Shown here piece after piece: positions 6,264-16,680 of a stretch of DNA of 23,568 nucleotides. Under the pieces are notes generated by a model. The model saw only the letters and a list, made by a program, of their open reading frames with translations. It was not told the DNA's origin and made no database searches. Position 1 is the stretch's first letter. Each line of letters starts with the position of its first letter. Both the position numbers and the translations under genes were made by a program. The stretch is from a virus: positions 1-23,568 of the IMG/VR virus record IMGVR_UViG_3300029309_000356. The stretch is one strand, 5' to 3'.

Positions 6264-6884
6264 GTGAGTTTCGTATCAAAAATAACGATGGATGATGCCA
6301 AAGTAAAATTTGGTAGTCTTTCACTTAATAATCAATATCAAGTGCATTTTGCTGGTTTGAACGGTGAGGTAATACAATTTCTGAGAGTTGATAAAAGAAT
6401 TGATAATGTTCAGGATTTTATTAGTCGTGAAACTGGTATACTTTGTAGTGATGCATCATTACCTGCGAGTGCCTATGCCACAGCAGAGGTGAAAGATAAT
6501 TTTATGGGTGTTCCACAGGAATTTGTGCACTCAAGATTATATACTGATATTGATTTTACCTTTTATGTCGATAAAGATTATACAGTTTTGAATATATTTG
6601 AAGGATGGATGGACTATATCTCTAGTGGTGCTTCTGGTGAGGTAAGAGATTTTCAAAAACCATTTTATCGTAGAATGAGATATCCTGATACTTATAAGTG
6701 TGATACCATGTTTATTACTAAATTTGAAAAGAATCAAAAAAGACTTTTGAGATATCAATTTATCAATGCATTTCCTAAAGCAATTACTCCAATGCCTGTT
6801 ACTTACGGACAGGCTGACTTACTCAGAGTGACTGTAAGTTTCAACTATGACAGGTATATTGTTGCAAACAAAGTAAATCCATGA
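6264..6884 (+). CDS. Tail-tube-like protein (gp19/gp54 superfamily)
   Basis: The 206-aa protein starts at GTG 6264, with AGG 8 nt upstream; an ATG at 6288 is an alternative. Its pattern is that of a tail-tube domain: LNNQYQVHFAGL, a segment with CSDASLPAS (as in the lead-in to the gp19 loop), a beta strand IDFTFYVDKDYTVLNIFEGWMDYI and a C-terminal pair RYQFINAFPKAIT with LLRVTVSFNYDRY. T4 gp19 (163 aa) forms the tube and gp54 (320 aa) initiates it; the length here lies between them. As it neighbours gp48, gp53 and gp26, a tube-initiator or hub-associated tube role is more likely than the main tube, which is inference. Confidence 0.65.
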   Translation: MSFVSKITMDDAKVKFGSLSLNNQYQVHFAGLNGEVIQFLRVDKRIDNVQDFISRETGILCSDASLPASAYATAEVKDNFMGVPQEFVHSRLYTDIDFTFYVDKDYTVLNIFEGWMDYISSGASGEVRDFQKPFYRRMRYPDTYKCDTMFITKFEKNQKRLLRYQFINAFPKAITPMPVTYGQADLLRVTVSFNYDRYIVANKVNP

Positions 6885-6919: not shown

Positions 6920-7642
6920 ATGCCATTACCCAAGATTAATACTCCAACGTATGAATTGACATTACCATCAAATAGTAAGAAAATTAAGTATCGTCCCTTC
7001 CTTGTCCGTGAAGAAAAGATACTAATTTTAGCACTTGAATCTCAGGACATGAAACAAATATCAAGTTCGATTGTTGAGATCATGGCTGATTGTATTCTTA
7101 CAAAGGGAGTTGATATAAACAAACTACCTAGTTTTGATATTGAATATTTGTTCTTAAATATACGTGCAAAATCAGTTGGAGAGACAGTTGAAGTTGTCGT
7201 GACTTGTCCTGATGACGGGGAGACAACAGTTGATACAGAGATAAGTATTGACTCAATTAAAGTCAAGAAAACAAAAGGACATAAGAATATTGTCAAACTT
7301 GATGATAAGTATTCAATGAAACTTAAATATCCTTCGATGCAACAATTTATTGATGCAAACTTTGATGCAGGTGAAGAGGGTAGTCAGGTTGCTCAATCAT
7401 TGAACATGCTTTCAACTTGTATTGATATGATATATGATGAGGAAGAAAGTTGGGATGCAAGTGATAGTACACCTGATGAGTTGAATGAATTTGTTGAACA
7501 ATTGAATACTAAACAGTTTAAAGATGTTGAAAATTTCTTTAACACTATGCCTAAGTTGGAACATAAAGTTAAAGTTAAAAATCCAAAAACAGGAGTTGAA
7601 AGTGATGTTGTACTGGAGGGACTAGCAAGTTTTTTCAGTTAG
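6920..7642 (+). CDS. 26: gp26-like baseplate hub / tail assembly chaperone
   Basis: The 240-aa protein is the size of T4 gp26 (208 aa) plus an acidic insertion. It matches in YELTLPSNSKKIKYRPFLVREEKILILALES, DINKLPSFDIEYLFLNIRAKSVGE and VTCPDDG. The C-terminal half (residues 150-215) is acidic and helical. T4 gp26 is needed for hub assembly. Position matters here: it is followed by a 57-aa ORF and then the tape-measure gene, the slot that lambda-like phages use for the G/GT chaperones. The last codons (AGT TTT TTC AGT TAG) contain a slippery heptamer and an upstream GGAGGG, so a fraction of ribosomes may extend it to 299 aa. Confidence 0.85.
   Translation: MPLPKINTPTYELTLPSNSKKIKYRPFLVREEKILILALESQDMKQISSSIVEIMADCILTKGVDINKLPSFDIEYLFLNIRAKSVGETVEVVVTCPDDGETTVDTEISIDSIKVKKTKGHKNIVKLDDKYSMKLKYPSMQQFIDANFDAGEEGSQVAQSLNMLSTCIDMIYDEEESWDASDSTPDELNEFVEQLNTKQFKDVENFFNTMPKLEHKVKVKNPKTGVESDVVLEGLASFFS
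7615..7642 (+). promoter_or_regulatory. Candidate programmed -1 frameshift cassette at the end of gp26
   Basis: T TTT TTC (7630-7636) is in the correct zero frame (AGT TTT TTC AGT TAG). The gp26 stop follows 3 nt later at 7640-7642. A Shine-Dalgarno-like GGAGGG (7615-7620) ends 9 nt before the heptamer, close to the spacing that stimulates -1 slipping in bacterial dnaX. The -1 frame is open from 7606 through the 57-aa ORF to 7818. A small inverted repeat GACTC/GAGTC (7656-7667) lies downstream. The product would be 239 gp26 residues plus 60. Confidence 0.65.
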
Positions 7643-7644
7643 GT

Positions 7645-7818
7645 ATGGCTCACACGACTCTTGAGTCATACTATAAGGTAAACTTTGCCTTGATGCAACA
7701 CCATAAATATTCATTAACAGAGATTGAAAACATGATGCCTTGGGAACGAGATGTGTACGTTACCCTGTTGAAACAATATATTGAAGAGGAAAACATTAAA
7801 GCACAACAAAGTGGCTAA
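7645..7818 (+). CDS. 57-aa ORF, candidate T-like extension of the tail chaperone
   Basis: The ORF runs from ATG 7645, 3 bp after the gp26 stop, to TAA 7816-7818. It could also be read as a -1 extension of gp26. The peptide has a helix (LESYYKVNFALMQHHKYSL), the motif TEIENMMPWERDVYVTLL and a charged end (KQYIEEEN). An aromatic-led helix, then an E-x-x-P-W-E/D motif and another helix, is a pattern seen in the T parts of G/GT chaperones, where T recruits the tape measure protein. T4 has gp51 beside gp26, but gp51 is much longer (about 249 aa). No good ribosome site lies at normal spacing from the ATG: GGAGGG is 24 nt away. The tape-measure start overlaps its 3' end. Confidence 0.8.
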   Translation: MAHTTLESYYKVNFALMQHHKYSLTEIENMMPWERDVYVTLLKQYIEEENIKAQQSG

Positions 7819-9352
7819 ATTACCAAAACTAGAACAGGAATATACAGGAGTTAATCCAGATACGGGTGAATACATGTCACCTGCTGAGAGGAAGGTAGCA
7901 TTTGCAAAAAGAACTGGTAAAGATGTAAGAAAGATGCCAAAGATGTCATCTACTACTGTGGGTGGTGCTTTTGGTGGAATGAAGGGTGGTGCATTAGTTA
8001 AACAAGATAGATTATTTAAAGTTGAACAAGAGATAGGAGAGGCAAACAAATCATTAGTAGAAATAAGATCAATATTGGAGAAAGATTTTGAAAGAAAAAT
8101 ACAACAAGATAAAGATGAGATTGCAGATTTACAAACATTAGATAGTAAAGAAAAATTTAAACGTAAAGAAAAAAGTGTAGAAAATAAAAATTTAGGAGAT
8201 AAGATTAAAAATCAGGCAGAAAAAGGATTAAAACCATTCAAGTCAATGACAGATAAGTTAATTGAACTTGCGACATTCCTGACAGCTGGTTTTCTTGGTA
8301 ATGCTGCATTTGAATTTTTAAAAGATCCTGCTGTGCGTGATGCATGGAAGAGTATTACAAAATTCATGATCAAACAGTTGGGATGGATTGGTAAGACTAT
8401 TGGTTCATTTATTGGTTTATTCTCATTTAAAAATCTTTTTAAATTATTTAAGAAAGCAGCAAAATTTGCACTAAACCTGCCTAAAAAAATATTTAACTTC
8501 GTTAAGAGTTTATTTAAGATACCAAAGAAGATAGGTCGTCTTTTTAAAAAGATTGGTATCAAAGTACAAAAGGTTGCAAAGAAAGTCAAGAATCTTGCTA
8601 AGACAATAGCTGGTATAATCAAGAAGGTTACAAATTTCCTAAAAGGTGGAGTTGGAAAAGTTTTAGGATTTGGTAAGAATTTACTTAAAAAAGGAAAAAA
8701 TGTAGTTAAATCATCTACTGCAATTGTTAAAAGTGGAGTAAAAAATCTTGGTAAAACAGGTGCTAAAACTGGTGTTAAAACTGCTACGAAGGCGGCTGGT
8801 AAAGGTGCTGGTAAATCTGTATTAAAGAAAATACCCTTTGTTGGTCTTGGACTTGGTGCAGCATTTGCTGTTGATAGATTAAGAAAAGGTGATTGGGCAG
8901 GTGCATTAATGGAACTTGGATCAGGTGCAGCATCCATGATTCCGGGTGTGGGAACAGCTGTATCTGCTGGTATAGATATCGCTCTGATCGCAAAGGATAT
9001 TGGTGATGCGAAGAAGAAACGAGCAGAAGGTGGAGAAGTTACACCTGCTAAAACTGGTAGAGGTGTAACCAAAGGTCAAAGATTGATCGTTGGTGAGAAA
9101 GGCCCAGAGATTCTGGAAGCACCATTTACTGGTACAGTGAAACATAATACAGAAACCATGAATACCCTCAAAGGTGAAGGTGGGGATGGAGTTGTAGTAG
9201 TCACAGAAAATTTACCACCAATTATGTCAAAACCACTAGAAGTGGGTCAAGATGCAGGTGAGGTGGCAAATCCCTCTGATTTCATAGCATCTATGAATAA
9301 AATGAATGATTATATGAAAACCACACCTGAAGTTCTAGGTATGACATTATGA
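7811..9352 (+). CDS. Tape-measure-like tail protein 1
   Basis: The frame extends to a TTG at 7781, but the GTG at 7811 (MAKLPKLEQEYTG) overlaps the preceding ORF by only 8 bp and is preferred; it gives 513 aa. Order of features: a charged coiled-coil part (residues 50-135), a hydrophobic helix (LIELATFLTAGFLGNAAFEF, about 145-170), a Lys-rich amphipathic stretch of nearly 100 residues (206-301), then an Ala/Gly-rich segment and a hydrophobic stretch (FVGLGLGAAFAV to SMIPGVGTAVSAGIDIALIA, about 341-395). The C-terminal LIVGEKGPEILEAPFTG motif is common in tape-measure proteins. Position after the chaperone pair supports this. T4 gp29 (590 aa) is the positional equivalent, but direct homology is not clear by eye. 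Confidence 0.75.
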   Translation: MAKLPKLEQEYTGVNPDTGEYMSPAERKVAFAKRTGKDVRKMPKMSSTTVGGAFGGMKGGALVKQDRLFKVEQEIGEANKSLVEIRSILEKDFERKIQQDKDEIADLQTLDSKEKFKRKEKSVENKNLGDKIKNQAEKGLKPFKSMTDKLIELATFLTAGFLGNAAFEFLKDPAVRDAWKSITKFMIKQLGWIGKTIGSFIGLFSFKNLFKLFKKAAKFALNLPKKIFNFVKSLFKIPKKIGRLFKKIGIKVQKVAKKVKNLAKTIAGIIKKVTNFLKGGVGKVLGFGKNLLKKGKNVVKSSTAIVKSGVKNLGKTGAKTGVKTATKAAGKGAGKSVLKKIPFVGLGLGAAFAVDRLRKGDWAGALMELGSGAASMIPGVGTAVSAGIDIALIAKDIGDAKKKRAEGGEVTPAKTGRGVTKGQRLIVGEKGPEILEAPFTGTVKHNTETMNTLKGEGGDGVVVVTENLPPIMSKPLEVGQDAGEVANPSDFIASMNKMNDYMKTTPEVLGMTL

Positions 9353-11686: not shown

Positions 11687-12514
11687 ATGACAGACGATAT
11701 AACACAACCAAGTTTTTTTAAGGGTGGTGCACAATTTTGGATAGGACAGGTCGTATCTACTAAAGCACAAAAACTTCAAATTGCTGGACATAATAAAGCA
11801 TGGGGATGGAGATATAAAGTTCGCATCTTTGGTGATACATCAGAGGCAGATAATATTCAAGATAAAGATGTGCATAGTGCATTAGTCATGTATGGTGTTA
11901 CAGATGGAACAGGATTTGGTGGTCGGGCAAAAACATGTAAGATAACTCAGAGGGATATTGTATTTGGTGTTTTCATGGCTCCTGATCAAAACTTTCCTGT
12001 GATTATGGGATTGCTTGCACCCACAGGTGGTAAGAAAAAACTTGAAGGAAAGTATGGAAATAAAGGTGATGGATATACAAAAGATTTGAAAAAAAATTCT
12101 CAAGTGGATAGCAGTGGCACAAATGATCAAGGTGGAACTAACGTAGCTAAAGTCAATGCTGACGAGGAGAACAACACTGGAAGTGGAAAGGGTAAAGAAG
12201 TAAACGAAGAAAAGATTAAACAACAACTAGGAGTTGATCCTAATTCTCAGGAGGTTAATGCTAAACCTGATCCTAATGGTTTAAAAAAATTTGATTTTAC
12301 CGGATTCAATCAGGATGATATTAAGGGAATGGTTCAAGAAACTGAAAACTTTGCAAATAATATGAAGGATGATGTGATTAAATTGGGTGATAAACTCAAA
12401 GAAGAAGCACCATTCGATGAATTAAAAAATACTGCTGAGAGACTTACACCTGAACTCAAGAATATTGCAGAGAGTTTTGGTGCTGATGTCGCAGGTGGTT
12501 TTGAATTTTTCTAA
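11687..12514 (+). CDS. 5: gp5-like baseplate spike OB-fold protein, no lysozyme domain
   Basis: The 275-aa protein opens with an OB-fold typical of gp5/VgrG proteins: AQFWIGQVVSTK, AWGWRYKVRIFGDTSEADN, HSALVMYGVTDGTGFGGRAK and FGVFMAPDQNFPVIMGLL (residues about 16-110). The rest is Gly/Asn/Lys-rich linker followed by helices (about 205-270). T4 gp5 has 575 aa with an OB domain, a lysozyme and a beta-helix. Here neither lysozyme motifs nor beta-helix repeats are visible, although a separate beta-helix-like gene lies at 14681. It follows the gp27-like gene by 2 bp, with an AGG ribosome site inside that gene. It probably joins hub to spike. Confidence 0.78.
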   Translation: MTDDITQPSFFKGGAQFWIGQVVSTKAQKLQIAGHNKAWGWRYKVRIFGDTSEADNIQDKDVHSALVMYGVTDGTGFGGRAKTCKITQRDIVFGVFMAPDQNFPVIMGLLAPTGGKKKLEGKYGNKGDGYTKDLKKNSQVDSSGTNDQGGTNVAKVNADEENNTGSGKGKEVNEEKIKQQLGVDPNSQEVNAKPDPNGLKKFDFTGFNQDDIKGMVQETENFANNMKDDVIKLGDKLKEEAPFDELKNTAERLTPELKNIAESFGADVAGGFEFF

Positions 12515-12524
12515 TAAATAAAGT

Positions 12525-14681
12525 ATGACAAACTCACAATTCTTACCAAAAGATAGCGAAAGATTTGCTGATAAGATTTTTAAATCACCTCCACCAGAAA
12601 ATTTGTCTGGTGATCAGATAAGTTTTTTCACCACATTAATAAAAGATAATCCTGTAGGATATGAAGAGGAGATAAGTTTACTAAAAAATACTTATCCAAC
12701 TGAATTTGGAAATGTAAATCCATTTAGTTCATCACAAATAAATGGATTTTCAGGAAGTGGATTTGATAATTATCTAAAAAGATCAAACAGTTATGACAGA
12801 GCAGCTGCAGAGAAATTAGATAGTGTATCTGATACATCAGGCACTTGTATTATACTTCCGGATGGTGAGTCTGATAAGTTCTTCGAGAAGGTCGAGGCGA
12901 GAACTAATAACTTTTTTGATAAGGCAAGTAAAGTTAACGACTTCACCACTGATCTACCGAATGAAATTACAAAACTAACAGACTCCATTGGAGGTGCTTC
13001 CTCAACTTTCGTAGGAAGAATCTCTAATTCCCTGCAAGATAGTTTGGTAGAATTTATTGATGGTGGTATGTCAAAACTATCAAGTCAAATCTTTAGTAGT
13101 CTTCCCGGAGCTGATGCACTAGGAAAGGTTAAATCATTCCAAAATAGTTTGATTGGCCCTGTCAGCAAACTTTTCAGTGGGATGGAGTGTCTTACATCAA
13201 AGGTAACTGAAGCATTGAAAGGTGTTATTAGTGATATGCTTACAGGCATGACTAAAAATTTAATTAATGTGCCAACGTGTGCGATACAACAATTCATTGG
13301 TGCATTGACAAATAAAATTGGTGATGCCATATCAGATGCGGTGACACCTGCATTACAACCAATATTAAGCATACTCGCTCCAATAGGTGCTAATTTTGAT
13401 GTAAAAGGTGCAGTTTTAGGTGGTATTGATTTCATGCAAAAGGCAGGTGATCTTTTTAAATGTGCTCCTCCAAAAAAACAAACATCCTCTGGTAAATATT
13501 GTATTGATGAGGGTTTAAAGAAGGACAAGACACAAAAAGAGAGTCAAAATCTTTTATCTCAATCACTTAATGCAGCATCATCAGCAAGTTCAGGGATAGA
13601 GAAAATCAAACAGGGATTAGACTCTGGAGTTCCACAACAAATCTCTAAGTTTGAAGAAGAGTATGGTCAATGGTCAATTTTTGGATCAAAGGTTGATGAA
13701 GCAACAGATCAAGGTATAGGTGGAGGTAATTGTTACACAGGAAATAACTTTAGTTGTGGGCCAACAACAGTTGATTTTTTTGGTGGAACAGGAGAGGGAG
13801 CATCGGGTGAGGTAATATTAGGAAATTTCATCACTAAATTTGATAAGGATGATTTATTTGGAACACTTACAAAAACTGCTGGAATTATAGGTGTTAAGAT
13901 AGATAATCCGGGTGAAGGATATGCTGAACCACCTTTGGTATCATTTAATGATAAATGTAAACAAGGATTTGGTGCTTATGCAAAAGCAATTATTGATGAA
14001 AAGGTAACATCACCAACATATGGTCAGGTAATTAAAGTTGTTATATTATCAGAAGGTACAAATTATCCAACTGATGGTTCAAATGAGCAGGAGGCATTTA
14101 TAAGTGACATTATTATAGAAGATCCCGGAAGAAATTATCAGGATGGATTTATCTCAGATGATATTGAACCAGTAATCAGAAATGGAAGAGTCGAGGCAGT
14201 GATTATAAAAGAACAAATACCTTATACTTCACTTCCCGATTTATTTGTTGAATCAGATACGGGTGTGGGTGCAGTGTTACGACCAATTTTATCTACAGAA
14301 AGAGAAGACAGGAGAACAGATCCCACTCAGGCTGGTGCATTTAAAGTTATTCAATGTGTTGGGACATTTCCCATATCTGAGGTATCACCACAGACAGTGC
14401 AAGAATCTGTTGTTAGAGGAGGATCAACTGCCACTGCAACAACAACATCTACATCCGAAGCAACTGAAGATGTTGAGACAAGCACACAATCAGAAATAAC
14501 AGAGGAATCAACCACTACACAAACGACCACACAAACAACTACACAAACTCAAACTCAAACGAGCACACCAGCACAGCAACAACAATCAACACCCACACCA
14601 CCAGCACAGCAACAACAATCAACACCACCTCCCACTCCACCTAGCACACCACCATCAGGTGGGGGAGGTTATGGTTACTAA
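12525..14681 (+). CDS. Large baseplate/tail structural protein (718 aa)
   Basis: I do not recognise a T4 homolog. The N-terminal half is helical and partly hydrophobic (for example ISDAVTPALQPILSILAPIG), with repeated Ser/Leu/Phe-rich helices. The second half contains two copies of a beta module: ITDNPGEGYAEPP-like IDNPGEGYAEPP...GFGAYAKAII...VIKVVILSEGTNYP, then IEDPGRNYQDG...VEAVIIKEQIPYTSLPDL...GVGAVLRPIL. Nine or so cysteines occur, unusual for a cytoplasmically assembled virion protein. The last 85 residues are Thr/Gln/Pro repeats ending SGGGGYGY. The gene lies between the gp5-OB protein and a spike-like gene, so a baseplate or hub-associated virion role is likely. The stop overlaps the next ATG (TAATG). 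Confidence 0.7.
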   Translation: MTNSQFLPKDSERFADKIFKSPPPENLSGDQISFFTTLIKDNPVGYEEEISLLKNTYPTEFGNVNPFSSSQINGFSGSGFDNYLKRSNSYDRAAAEKLDSVSDTSGTCIILPDGESDKFFEKVEARTNNFFDKASKVNDFTTDLPNEITKLTDSIGGASSTFVGRISNSLQDSLVEFIDGGMSKLSSQIFSSLPGADALGKVKSFQNSLIGPVSKLFSGMECLTSKVTEALKGVISDMLTGMTKNLINVPTCAIQQFIGALTNKIGDAISDAVTPALQPILSILAPIGANFDVKGAVLGGIDFMQKAGDLFKCAPPKKQTSSGKYCIDEGLKKDKTQKESQNLLSQSLNAASSASSGIEKIKQGLDSGVPQQISKFEEEYGQWSIFGSKVDEATDQGIGGGNCYTGNNFSCGPTTVDFFGGTGEGASGEVILGNFITKFDKDDLFGTLTKTAGIIGVKIDNPGEGYAEPPLVSFNDKCKQGFGAYAKAIIDEKVTSPTYGQVIKVVILSEGTNYPTDGSNEQEAFISDIIIEDPGRNYQDGFISDDIEPVIRNGRVEAVIIKEQIPYTSLPDLFVESDTGVGAVLRPILSTEREDRRTDPTQAGAFKVIQCVGTFPISEVSPQTVQESVVRGGSTATATTTSTSEATEDVETSTQSEITEESTTTQTTTQTTTQTQTQTSTPAQQQQSTPTPPAQQQQSTPPPTPPSTPPSGGGGYGY
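14568..14626 (+). repeat. Tandem direct repeat in the Thr/Gln/Pro tail of the 718-aa protein
   Basis: A 26-bp unit (CCAGCACAGC...CAACACC) occurs at 14568-14593 and identically at 14601-14626, a 33-bp period of 11 codons (PAQQQQSTPTP / PAQQQQSTPPP). It follows ACA/CAA triplet runs at 14510-14560 that encode TTTQ repeats. Such in-frame repeats can expand or contract by recombination or slippage. Confidence 0.85.
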
Positions 14682-15223
14682 TGTCTGATTCAAAAGAGGC
14701 AAGACAACTTGAACTGTTTGGTGAAAAGTTATTCATGGAGGTCAATGGTTCAGCACCAGATGGCCCGGGAACTTGTGCTTATCTACTATCTTCACAAACA
14801 AGAGATAAAGTAAAGTATAATCAAAGTTTGCATGAAGGATCAGGTTTATCAAGAGTTTATGCGGATAAAGTTTTACAAATCGAAGCAGGAAATAAATGTC
14901 AAACTAACGAAAAAGCAATCGCTGTAACATCACATAACGGGGATGTATTCATTACAGCTTTAAATGGTAGAATTCTTTTTGATGCAAAAGAAATCATAAT
15001 GAGTGCCGATACCAACGTGAAAATAGTTGGATCAAAAATACAAGTCGGATATAATCAAGGTGGTTCAACAGATCAGGTAGATATAAATGGTGCTAAGATA
15101 CATATAAATCCAGGCTCTAAGTGCACTCTCAAGGATAAAGTCTTATATAATAATGCTTTTAAATCATTTGCAAGTGCTTTAGTCGGCTACAATAAGTGGT
15201 ACAATAGTCTTCTACCAAAATAA
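14681..15223 (+). CDS. Putative baseplate spike protein with beta-helix C-terminus
   Basis: The 180-aa protein starts with a mixed region (QLELFGEKLFMEVNGSAPDG). From about residue 75 it shows short alternating strands ending in Gly/Asn/Asp turns: AIAVTSHNGDVFITALNGRILFDAKEI, IIMSADTNVKIVGSKIQVG and VDINGAKIHINPGSKCTL. This pattern is like the triple-stranded beta-helix of gp5/VgrG spikes. The C-terminus (FKSFASALVGYNKWYNSLL) is helical. With the gp5-like gene lacking a beta-helix, this could supply the spike, or act as a separate hub/needle protein; this is inference. It is coupled to both neighbours by TAATG overlaps. Confidence 0.55.
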   Translation: MSDSKEARQLELFGEKLFMEVNGSAPDGPGTCAYLLSSQTRDKVKYNQSLHEGSGLSRVYADKVLQIEAGNKCQTNEKAIAVTSHNGDVFITALNGRILFDAKEIIMSADTNVKIVGSKIQVGYNQGGSTDQVDINGAKIHINPGSKCTLKDKVLYNNAFKSFASALVGYNKWYNSLLPK

Positions 15224-16680
15224 TGTCAGATAATCCAAGTCTATTAAATCAAGCAGAAGTCTCTGACGGTAATTCCGTCTTTGATGATGTATGGATATTA
15301 AATAAATTAAATTATGATTTTACCAAATCAGGTACAATAAATGTATCAGAATTAAATGTTATTGGTGTATCAACTTTCAGTAGTGATGTCACATTTTCTG
15401 GTGATATAACTCTTGATGAAATTACTTGTCGTAATGCAAATGTCACTGGTATTGCAACAGTTATCGGGGATTTATATTTAACAGGTGCTTTTAGAGATTC
15501 AAGTGGAGATGCTGGTACATCAGGTAAATTATTAGAATCAACTGGTAGTGGTACAAATTGGGTGGCAGCAAATGCAACAAGTGTTGCAAATGCAATTAAT
15601 GTTGGTGTGAATGTCAATGGTACAAATGCAGATCAATTTGTATCTTTCTTTGGTGCAAACAGTGGTAATCAACCTAATAGAGTTGATGGAGACTTTACAT
15701 ATAACCCATCCACAAATACAATGTCAGGAATTAATTATTCTGGCACTTCGAGTTTTAACAATGTTAATATTACCGGTGTTACCACTGTATCAAACTTGTA
15801 TGTTAATGGAAGATTATACGATAAAGATGGACAATCTGGTAATAGTGGTCAAGTATTATCATCCACAGGAACAAAAGTTGATTGGATAAACGTAGGTAGT
15901 ATTTCTGCAGGTTCAGCAGCACAGGTTGCAGTTACAAACACTGCTTCTGGATCACATTTTTTAGCATTTGTTGATAGCACATCTGGAAATGAAGATGTTA
16001 GAGCTAACTCTAATCTCACATATAATGTATCTTCTCAAGAGATTGGTGGTAAAATATCTGACATTTCAAATCATGACACTGGTGATTTATCTGAAGGATC
16101 AAATTTATATCATACAACTGCAAGGGCTAGAGCAGCGATTAGTGCATCAGGTGATTTAAATTATAATAATAGTACAGGTGTGATGTCATTCTCTGCACCA
16201 TCTGCATTTGTGAGTGGTATGATAATACTTTGGTCTGGTAATACTGGAAATATTCCAACTGGTTTTGTATTATGTGATGGTCAGAATAACACACCAGACT
16301 TGAGAAATAGATTTGTGGTGGGAGCAGGTGATGTTTACAGTCCCGGAAATACTGGTGGTAGTACAGATGCAACTTTGGTATCACATAGTCATACTATAAA
16401 CAATCATACTCACTCATTTAGTGCAACCACAGGAAGTGACACACATAGTCACTCTTACATCGATCAGTATGTTGTAATTAATAATGGATACAGACCTTGG
16501 CCAGCAAGTAATAATGACTGTGCAGCTAGAAATGTTAACACTGGTGGAGATACACACTCACACTCTGTTAGTGGTACAACTGGTAATCCATCTGATAGAG
16601 GGACAAACACACAAGGATCTTCAGCAACTAACGCAAACTTACCACCATACTATGCCCTCTGCTATATTATGAAGACATAG
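15223..16680 (+). CDS. Tail fibre protein with C-terminal tail-collar domain (gp12-like)
   Basis: The 485-aa protein has an N-terminal fibre region with beta repeats (INVSELNVIGVSTFSSDVTF, NVTGIATVIGDLYLTG). Two copies of a DxSGxxGTSGxxLxSTGxxxxW linker follow (residues about 92-115 and 205-226). The C-terminal receptor part is a tail-collar domain: GMIILWSGNTGNIPTGFVLCDG, NTPDLRNRFVVGAGD, GGSTDATLVSHSHTINNHTHSF and the ending NLPPYYALCYIMKT. Histidine clusters (HSHT, NHTHS, THSHS twice) at 16381-16575 are probably metal ligands, as in T4 gp12 (Zn) or gp37 tip (Fe). It likely binds the host surface. It ends the late tail operon; no terminator is visible after it. Confidence 0.82.
   Translation: MSDNPSLLNQAEVSDGNSVFDDVWILNKLNYDFTKSGTINVSELNVIGVSTFSSDVTFSGDITLDEITCRNANVTGIATVIGDLYLTGAFRDSSGDAGTSGKLLESTGSGTNWVAANATSVANAINVGVNVNGTNADQFVSFFGANSGNQPNRVDGDFTYNPSTNTMSGINYSGTSSFNNVNITGVTTVSNLYVNGRLYDKDGQSGNSGQVLSSTGTKVDWINVGSISAGSAAQVAVTNTASGSHFLAFVDSTSGNEDVRANSNLTYNVSSQEIGGKISDISNHDTGDLSEGSNLYHTTARARAAISASGDLNYNNSTGVMSFSAPSAFVSGMIILWSGNTGNIPTGFVLCDGQNNTPDLRNRFVVGAGDVYSPGNTGGSTDATLVSHSHTINNHTHSFSATTGSDTHSHSYIDQYVVINNGYRPWPASNNDCAARNVNTGGDTHSHSVSGTTGNPSDRGTNTQGSSATNANLPPYYALCYIMKT

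Follow-up and report, generated by a model that had tools for sequence, protein, structure and literature searches.

Does the small open reading frame (ORF) behind gp26 in a marine T4-like phage encode a protein of its own, or is it the C-terminal part of a longer gp26 reached by ribosomal frameshifting? This question is raised by a junction in our window, the 23,568-nt stretch of DNA that we analyzed (IMG/VR virus record IMGVR_UViG_3300029309_000356, positions 1 to 23,568). The original prediction favored a programmed -1 frameshift. The junction and its surroundings have the following features.

6920 to 7642, plus strand: gp26 homologue of 240 aa, the short form (TAC-N, or "G" role), from PF12322, phrog_150, and an AlphaFold model.
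7615 to 7620, plus strand: Shine-Dalgarno-like (SD-like) GGAGGG, a probable frameshift stimulator, from the GAGG spacing and GAG codon excess in representatives.
7630 to 7636, plus strand: slippery heptamer T_TTT_TTC, from the conservation of T_TTT_TTN across loci and tree parsimony.
7637 to 7641, plus strand: spacer of 5 nt between heptamer and hairpin, from the fold.
7642 to 7652, plus strand: 5' arm of a putative stimulatory hairpin of 11 bp (counting a closing G-U pair), which includes the ATG at 7645-7647.
7653 to 7661, plus strand: hairpin loop of 9 nt, from the fold.
7662 to 7672, plus strand: 3' arm of the putative stimulatory hairpin.
7606 to 7818, plus strand: -1 open frame, a C-terminal extension (T role; "gp51" in cyanophage annotation) and almost certainly no stand-alone gene, from phrog_634, phrog_150, and the gp51 alignment.
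6920 to 7818, plus strand: predicted 299-aa gp26-51 frameshift fusion, the long form (TAC-NC, or "GT" role), assembled from its parts.
7811 to 9352, plus strand: 513-aa ORF, a probable tape-measure protein, from weak profile matches and position.

On the window sequence, the heptamer lies in the zero frame of gp26 as predicted, and the GGAGGG, the -1 frame open from 7606, and the 299-aa fusion are each where they had been placed. The gp26 product ends in GLASFFS before its stop, with codons AGT TTT TTC AGT TAG across the heptamer. In the -1 frame, a TGA at 7603-7605 precedes the open stretch, the stop is 7816-7818, and the first ATG is at 7645, 3 nt past the gp26 stop here and in most close relatives. 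Directly 5' of gp26 is a gene for a tail-tube-like protein (6264-6884; phrog_45, PF23849) with a GTG start, and in P-SSM2, the gene at this position is annotated as "hypothetical protein."

A lone T_TTT_TT heptamer in a gene is not rare; its conservation is what exceeds chance. The window holds five in-frame T_TTT_TT sites in 7,127 codons, and ~0.17 are expected per gene of gp26's size. The -1 frame is also open from the heptamer to the ATG, as the original prediction noted, but we discarded this as evidence because the codons there (C..,.TA or.TG, and A.. or G..) cannot be stops, and openness is thus guaranteed by construction. With the heptamer alone not rare and openness uninformative, the test therefore had to be comparative.

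The comparison drew on 305 usable junctions, collected by scanning viral contigs for gp26 four times and adding six annotated phage records and the window; thinning left 223 representatives. T_TTT_TTN was kept in 305/305 loci, and the T ORF was in the -1 frame in 305/305. Alignment of the junction across these relatives bore out the prediction, with the six Ts unbroken in all loci and no -1 stop before the conserved T domain. Among the representatives, the heptamer was TTTTTTC in 215, TTTTTTT in 7, and TTTTTTG in 1. Given the encoded amino acids, it would be expected in ~93 of the 223 representatives, compared to the 223 observed, and other Phe-Phe pairs in the same gp26 genes were encoded by TTTTTT in 6/224 cases. 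Parsimony on the tree required 0 changes at the six Ts vs. roughly 40-100 at most neighboring third codon positions. The wobble base of the heptamer was C in 215/222 Phe codons, compared to a background of 29% TTC. The distance from the heptamer to a conserved YYKxNF block was exactly 13 codons in 212/223 representatives, and T itself was 59-75 aa long.

Outside the 305-locus set, T_TTT_TTC also occurs in Stenotrophomonas phage Moby, Aeromonas phages CC2 and Aeh1, P-HM1, and S-PM2; within it, Vibrio phage nt-1 carries TTTTTTC, phiN3 TTTTTTT, and RHph_N34 TTTTTTG. No X_XXY_YYZ heptamer was found at the gp26 ends of Ackermannviridae (L326, L327, and L330) or Vibrio phage D509 (L331), and the signal is therefore not universal among gp26 relatives. 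Separately, further in-frame T_TTT_TT heptamers lie inside structural genes of the window (11687-12514, 12525-14681, and 15223-16680).

The signals around the heptamer were also informative. GAGG ended exactly 10 nt 5' of the heptamer in 159/223 representatives, so the conservation expected of GGAGGG held for most of them but was weaker or absent in ~28%. Where Glu is encoded at this position, the codon was GAG in 159/199 cases (80%) vs. a 30% background. On its flanks, GGA and GGG were overrepresented among codons of the next Gly, as were G-ending codons at the preceding Leu. These patterns indicate that GAGG is selected at the codon level with fixed spacing. Nor is GAGG simply a ribosome-binding site for T, because it was kept in 21 of 40 loci lacking any T start codon.

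We also found a downstream hairpin that was absent from the original prediction (7642-7652/7662-7672), with 11 bp in the window fold and an onset 5 nt after the heptamer. In the 73 representatives with the window's stem, its mean z was -4.63 when dinucleotide shuffles served as the reference and -4.8 when the reference was synonymous recodings that preserve the peptide. For the remaining 150 representatives, the two values were -1.74 and -2.03, and control windows fell between about -0.7 and +0.5. In a covariation set of 41 sequences, 18 cells changed on both sides with the pair kept (0/500 shuffles). Selection of this set relied chiefly on the outer part (half) of the 5' arm, which makes the inner pairs the fairer test. 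One stem pair occurs as UA, AU, or GC. Within the window's clade, the stem hardly varies, which leaves covariation near zero. RNAalifold predicted no consensus structure for this clade, probably owing to a few non-conforming sequences and a mostly invariant stem.

Away from the window, the hairpin was less uniform, with z < -2 in under half of the sequences. P-HM1 and S-PM2 have strong hairpins at the same place that are unrelated in sequence to the window's, and that of S-PM2 (L334), just after the gp26 heptamer, reaches 14 bp. We ruled out one stem in the same register across all clades, as pairing in that register was confined to the window's clade and some of the P-SSM2 group. The full three-part signal (an SD-like element ~10 nt upstream and a hairpin 5-8 nt downstream of the heptamer) was found in the window and its clade and was weaker in some other clades. 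Overall, the comparative evidence shows selection on all three elements.

These elements also bear on whether slippage would occur in transcription. RNA polymerase could slip on the six-T run and produce mRNAs one base longer or shorter, which would yield the same fusion, and a conserved homopolymer run is what this explanation would lead us to expect. However, six bases are short for polymerase slippage, the run is not lengthened, its wobble base is C in 215/223 representatives, and GAGG and the hairpin are separately selected at ribosomal distances. We consider transcriptional slippage very unlikely.

Could the 57-aa ORF instead be a separate gene ("gp51"), translated from the ATG at 7645 by re-initiation after the gp26 stop? 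Many records annotate it so, including P-SSM2, S-PM2, and S-8S56, where T is called from the junction ATG. The position of this ATG just past the gp26 stop fits re-initiation, and with an ATG ahead of the YYKxNF block in 155/223 representatives, a certain amount of T may be made as a protein of its own. Yet the original prediction judged GGAGGG, 24 nt from this ATG, too far away to start it normally, and an SD motif at start distance was seen at 0/155 T ATGs vs. 76/223 gp26 starts. Moreover, 40 representatives, ACG-2014b among them, have no ATG, GTG, or TTG before the YYKxNF block, and 28 more have GTG/TTG only. In S-CAM1, Aeh1, and CC2, the junction region lacks an ATG, and the records carry no T gene annotation. 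In the window, the ATG is buried in the hairpin stem (7645-7647), which should further hinder separate initiation. A separate gene would also leave the six invariant Ts and the constant -1 frame of T unexplained, and the peptide ahead of the ATG still aligns to gp51. We therefore regard a separate gene as very unlikely, and the 57-aa ORF, or cyanophage gp51, is almost certainly not a stand-alone gene.

The annotation of T is uneven across records. It is unannotated in the S-CAM1, ACG-2014b, CC2, and Aeh1 records. In Aeh1 (L332, 1001-1180), T_TTT_TTC is followed by an unannotated -1 extension of 60 aa, in which ATG first appears at codon 21, and CC2 (L329, 2193-2366) has an unannotated -1 T domain after T_TTT_TTC. 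In Sf-CH8 (L323, 2768-2899), gp51 was called from an internal ATG 50 nt past the gp26 stop, and the annotated protein is thereby cut to 43 aa. A survey of 26 T4-like genomes reported cyanophage gp51 at ~20% of its usual length and gp51 as "missing only in Aeh1" (Sullivan et al. 2010, PMC3037559). Both the short cyanophage gp51 and its apparent absence from Aeh1 would be explained by the -1 frameshift.

The protein families point the same way. The window's gp26 matched PF12322 (E=8.9e-72) and phrog_150 (E=2.3e-79), while the -1 ORF matched phrog_634 ("baseplate hub assembly catalyst," gp51; E=4e-31) and positions 227-278 of phrog_150 (E=9.7e-9). Of the 282 columns of phrog_150, T4 gp26 (208 aa) spans 14-235 and T4 gp51 spans 13-280. 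T4-type gp51 (249 aa) thus fits the long gp26 profile end to end, and T4 gp51 also matches phrog_634. These alignments indicate that in T4, separate genes encode the short protein (gp26) and its long paralogue (gp51). With hhalign, marine gp26 aligned to gp51 residues 6-200 (97.4%, E=1e-11) and stopped at the heptamer's Phe-Phe. The -1 peptide aligned to T4-like gp51 residues 199-253 (94%, E=2e-8), beginning at Phe-Phe and including the residues before the ATG. By these alignments, the point in gp51 where the gp26-like part and T are fused in frame coincides with the heptamer. T4 and Aes012 each have two PF12322 genes, vs. one in each of the nine frameshifting records searched. The heptamer was found in none of the 11 T4-type gp26 genes with complete ends and a separate gp51 (a 12th was left out because a contig end cuts the gene), and T4 gp26 writes its own Phe-Phe as TTC TTT.

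This loss also bears on a last alternative, that the heptamer is an RNA or DNA signal unrelated to frameshifting, such as a protein site or, together with the hairpin, a terminator. A hairpin and a T run are indeed both present. However, the T run is upstream of the hairpin rather than downstream. The signal also keeps to the reading frame and has disappeared from the T4-like gp26 genes of phages that encode the long form separately. Such a signal is extremely improbable as the explanation, and we return to a programmed -1 ribosomal frameshift that gives two forms of a tail assembly chaperone, a reading in which we are highly confident.

A putative G/GT chaperone role is the best explanation for the middling fold match of gp26, the T4 listing, and a long downstream ORF with weak tape-measure similarity. 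AlphaFold modeled gp26 with a pLDDT of 91. Its N-terminal domain gave as top three structural rows 3fgx (Z 8.0; uncharacterized, from Bacillus stearothermophilus), the HK97 tail assembly chaperone 2ob9 (Z 7.8), and YqbN 3klu (Z 7.0), which are middling values. Foldseek alone found no significant match to the model in the PDB, with 2ob9 ranked third. A PDB sequence search found no gp26 or gp51 relative, and an NCBIfam search found no match. T4 gp26 and gp51 have been listed as hub assembly chaperones, with gp51 needed for assembly and absent from the particle (PMC3004832). As predicted, a long ORF, of 513 aa, follows at once, but its identity as the tape measure draws on weak profile matches. 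The phrog_4200 tape-measure match had E=4.5e-4, with stronger matches to non-tape-measure families, and the phiN3 counterpart matched phrog_4200 at 3.5e-5. Mainly from its position, we infer that this ORF is probably the tape measure.

The assignment of gp26 to the G role and the ORF to the T role is strongly supported by slip-site conservation, the frame relation, the signals, and in-frame gp51 homology. The locus resembles lambda gpG/gpGT in having a short protein with a predicted -1 frameshift extension, a position ahead of a probable tape measure, and a slip site just before the short gene ends. Unlike in lambda, gp26 is longer (240 aa), and slippage would take place on T_TTT_TTC, flanked by an SD-like element and a hairpin. 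No sequence match of gp26 to gpG was found among the families searched. With T4, the locus shares the family (PF12322, phrog_150), and the T domain corresponds to the gp51 C-terminus. However, T4 has two genes without frameshifting, whereas here one gene would give both forms. In Escherichia coli dnaX, an SD ~10 nt upstream, the slippery heptamer A_AAA_AAG, and a hairpin ~5 nt downstream lead to a shortened product. The three-part layout is alike, but here the heptamer is T_TTT_TTC and the product is extended.

By this mechanism, most ribosomes would complete the 240-aa gp26 short form, while a minority, as we infer for slippage efficiency, would slip one base back on T_TTT_TTC. The GGAGGG ~10 nt upstream would aid the slip by pairing with the ribosome's anti-Shine-Dalgarno, as would the hairpin 5 nt downstream. 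Slipped ribosomes would continue into the 299-aa gp26-51 fusion, or long form. Like lambda gpG and gpGT, the two forms would be expected to cover the tape-measure protein and bring in subunits of the tail tube. What the comparative evidence shows is the slip site with its conservation, the -1 relation of the two frames, selection on the signals, and homology to the in-frame gp51 of T4.

The abstract of Vladimirov, Gautam, and Davidson from 2022 reportedly names genes 26 and 51 and describes frameshifting as kept in several T4-like groups. The original prediction was not aware of such annotation in marine T4-like phages, but T4-like tail assembly chaperones, some of them frameshifted, had already been identified in that study (Virology 566:9-15, as cited in PMC10885494 and PMC12846349). 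PRFect cites it on T4-like phages, some of which encode the short form and the fused long form in separate genes (PMC10885494), and another paper refers to it for polyT signals that direct frameshifting in the short genes of T4-like phages (PMC12846349). The Vandenendeviridae and Andersonviridae tail assembly chaperones are likewise described with a T-rich slip site close to where the short gene ends and an unannotated -1 extension before the tape measure, but their motif is GTTTTT, and that account reports no SD or hairpin in the parts consulted (PMC12846349). The principle is already known in phages, and the signal seen here is an unusually complete and conserved one. The complete three-part signal, its extent, and its consequences for annotation may be new. 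More tentatively, and with somewhat less than even confidence, we suggest that a three-part -1 signal (SD, T_TTT_TTC, and a hairpin masking a false start) was ancestral to the T4 superfamily. The T4 lineage would have swapped the frameshift for gene duplication and in-frame fusion at the exact slip point, with later loss of the slippery site. On this view, neither the full signal nor how nearly universal it is among marine T4-like phages would have been described before.

Several hundred public records likely misannotate or omit the cyanophage "gp51, baseplate hub assembly catalyst." The locus also offers a natural comparison between frameshifting and gene duplication as ways of making the short and long form of one chaperone, in a group of ocean viruses that is extremely abundant.
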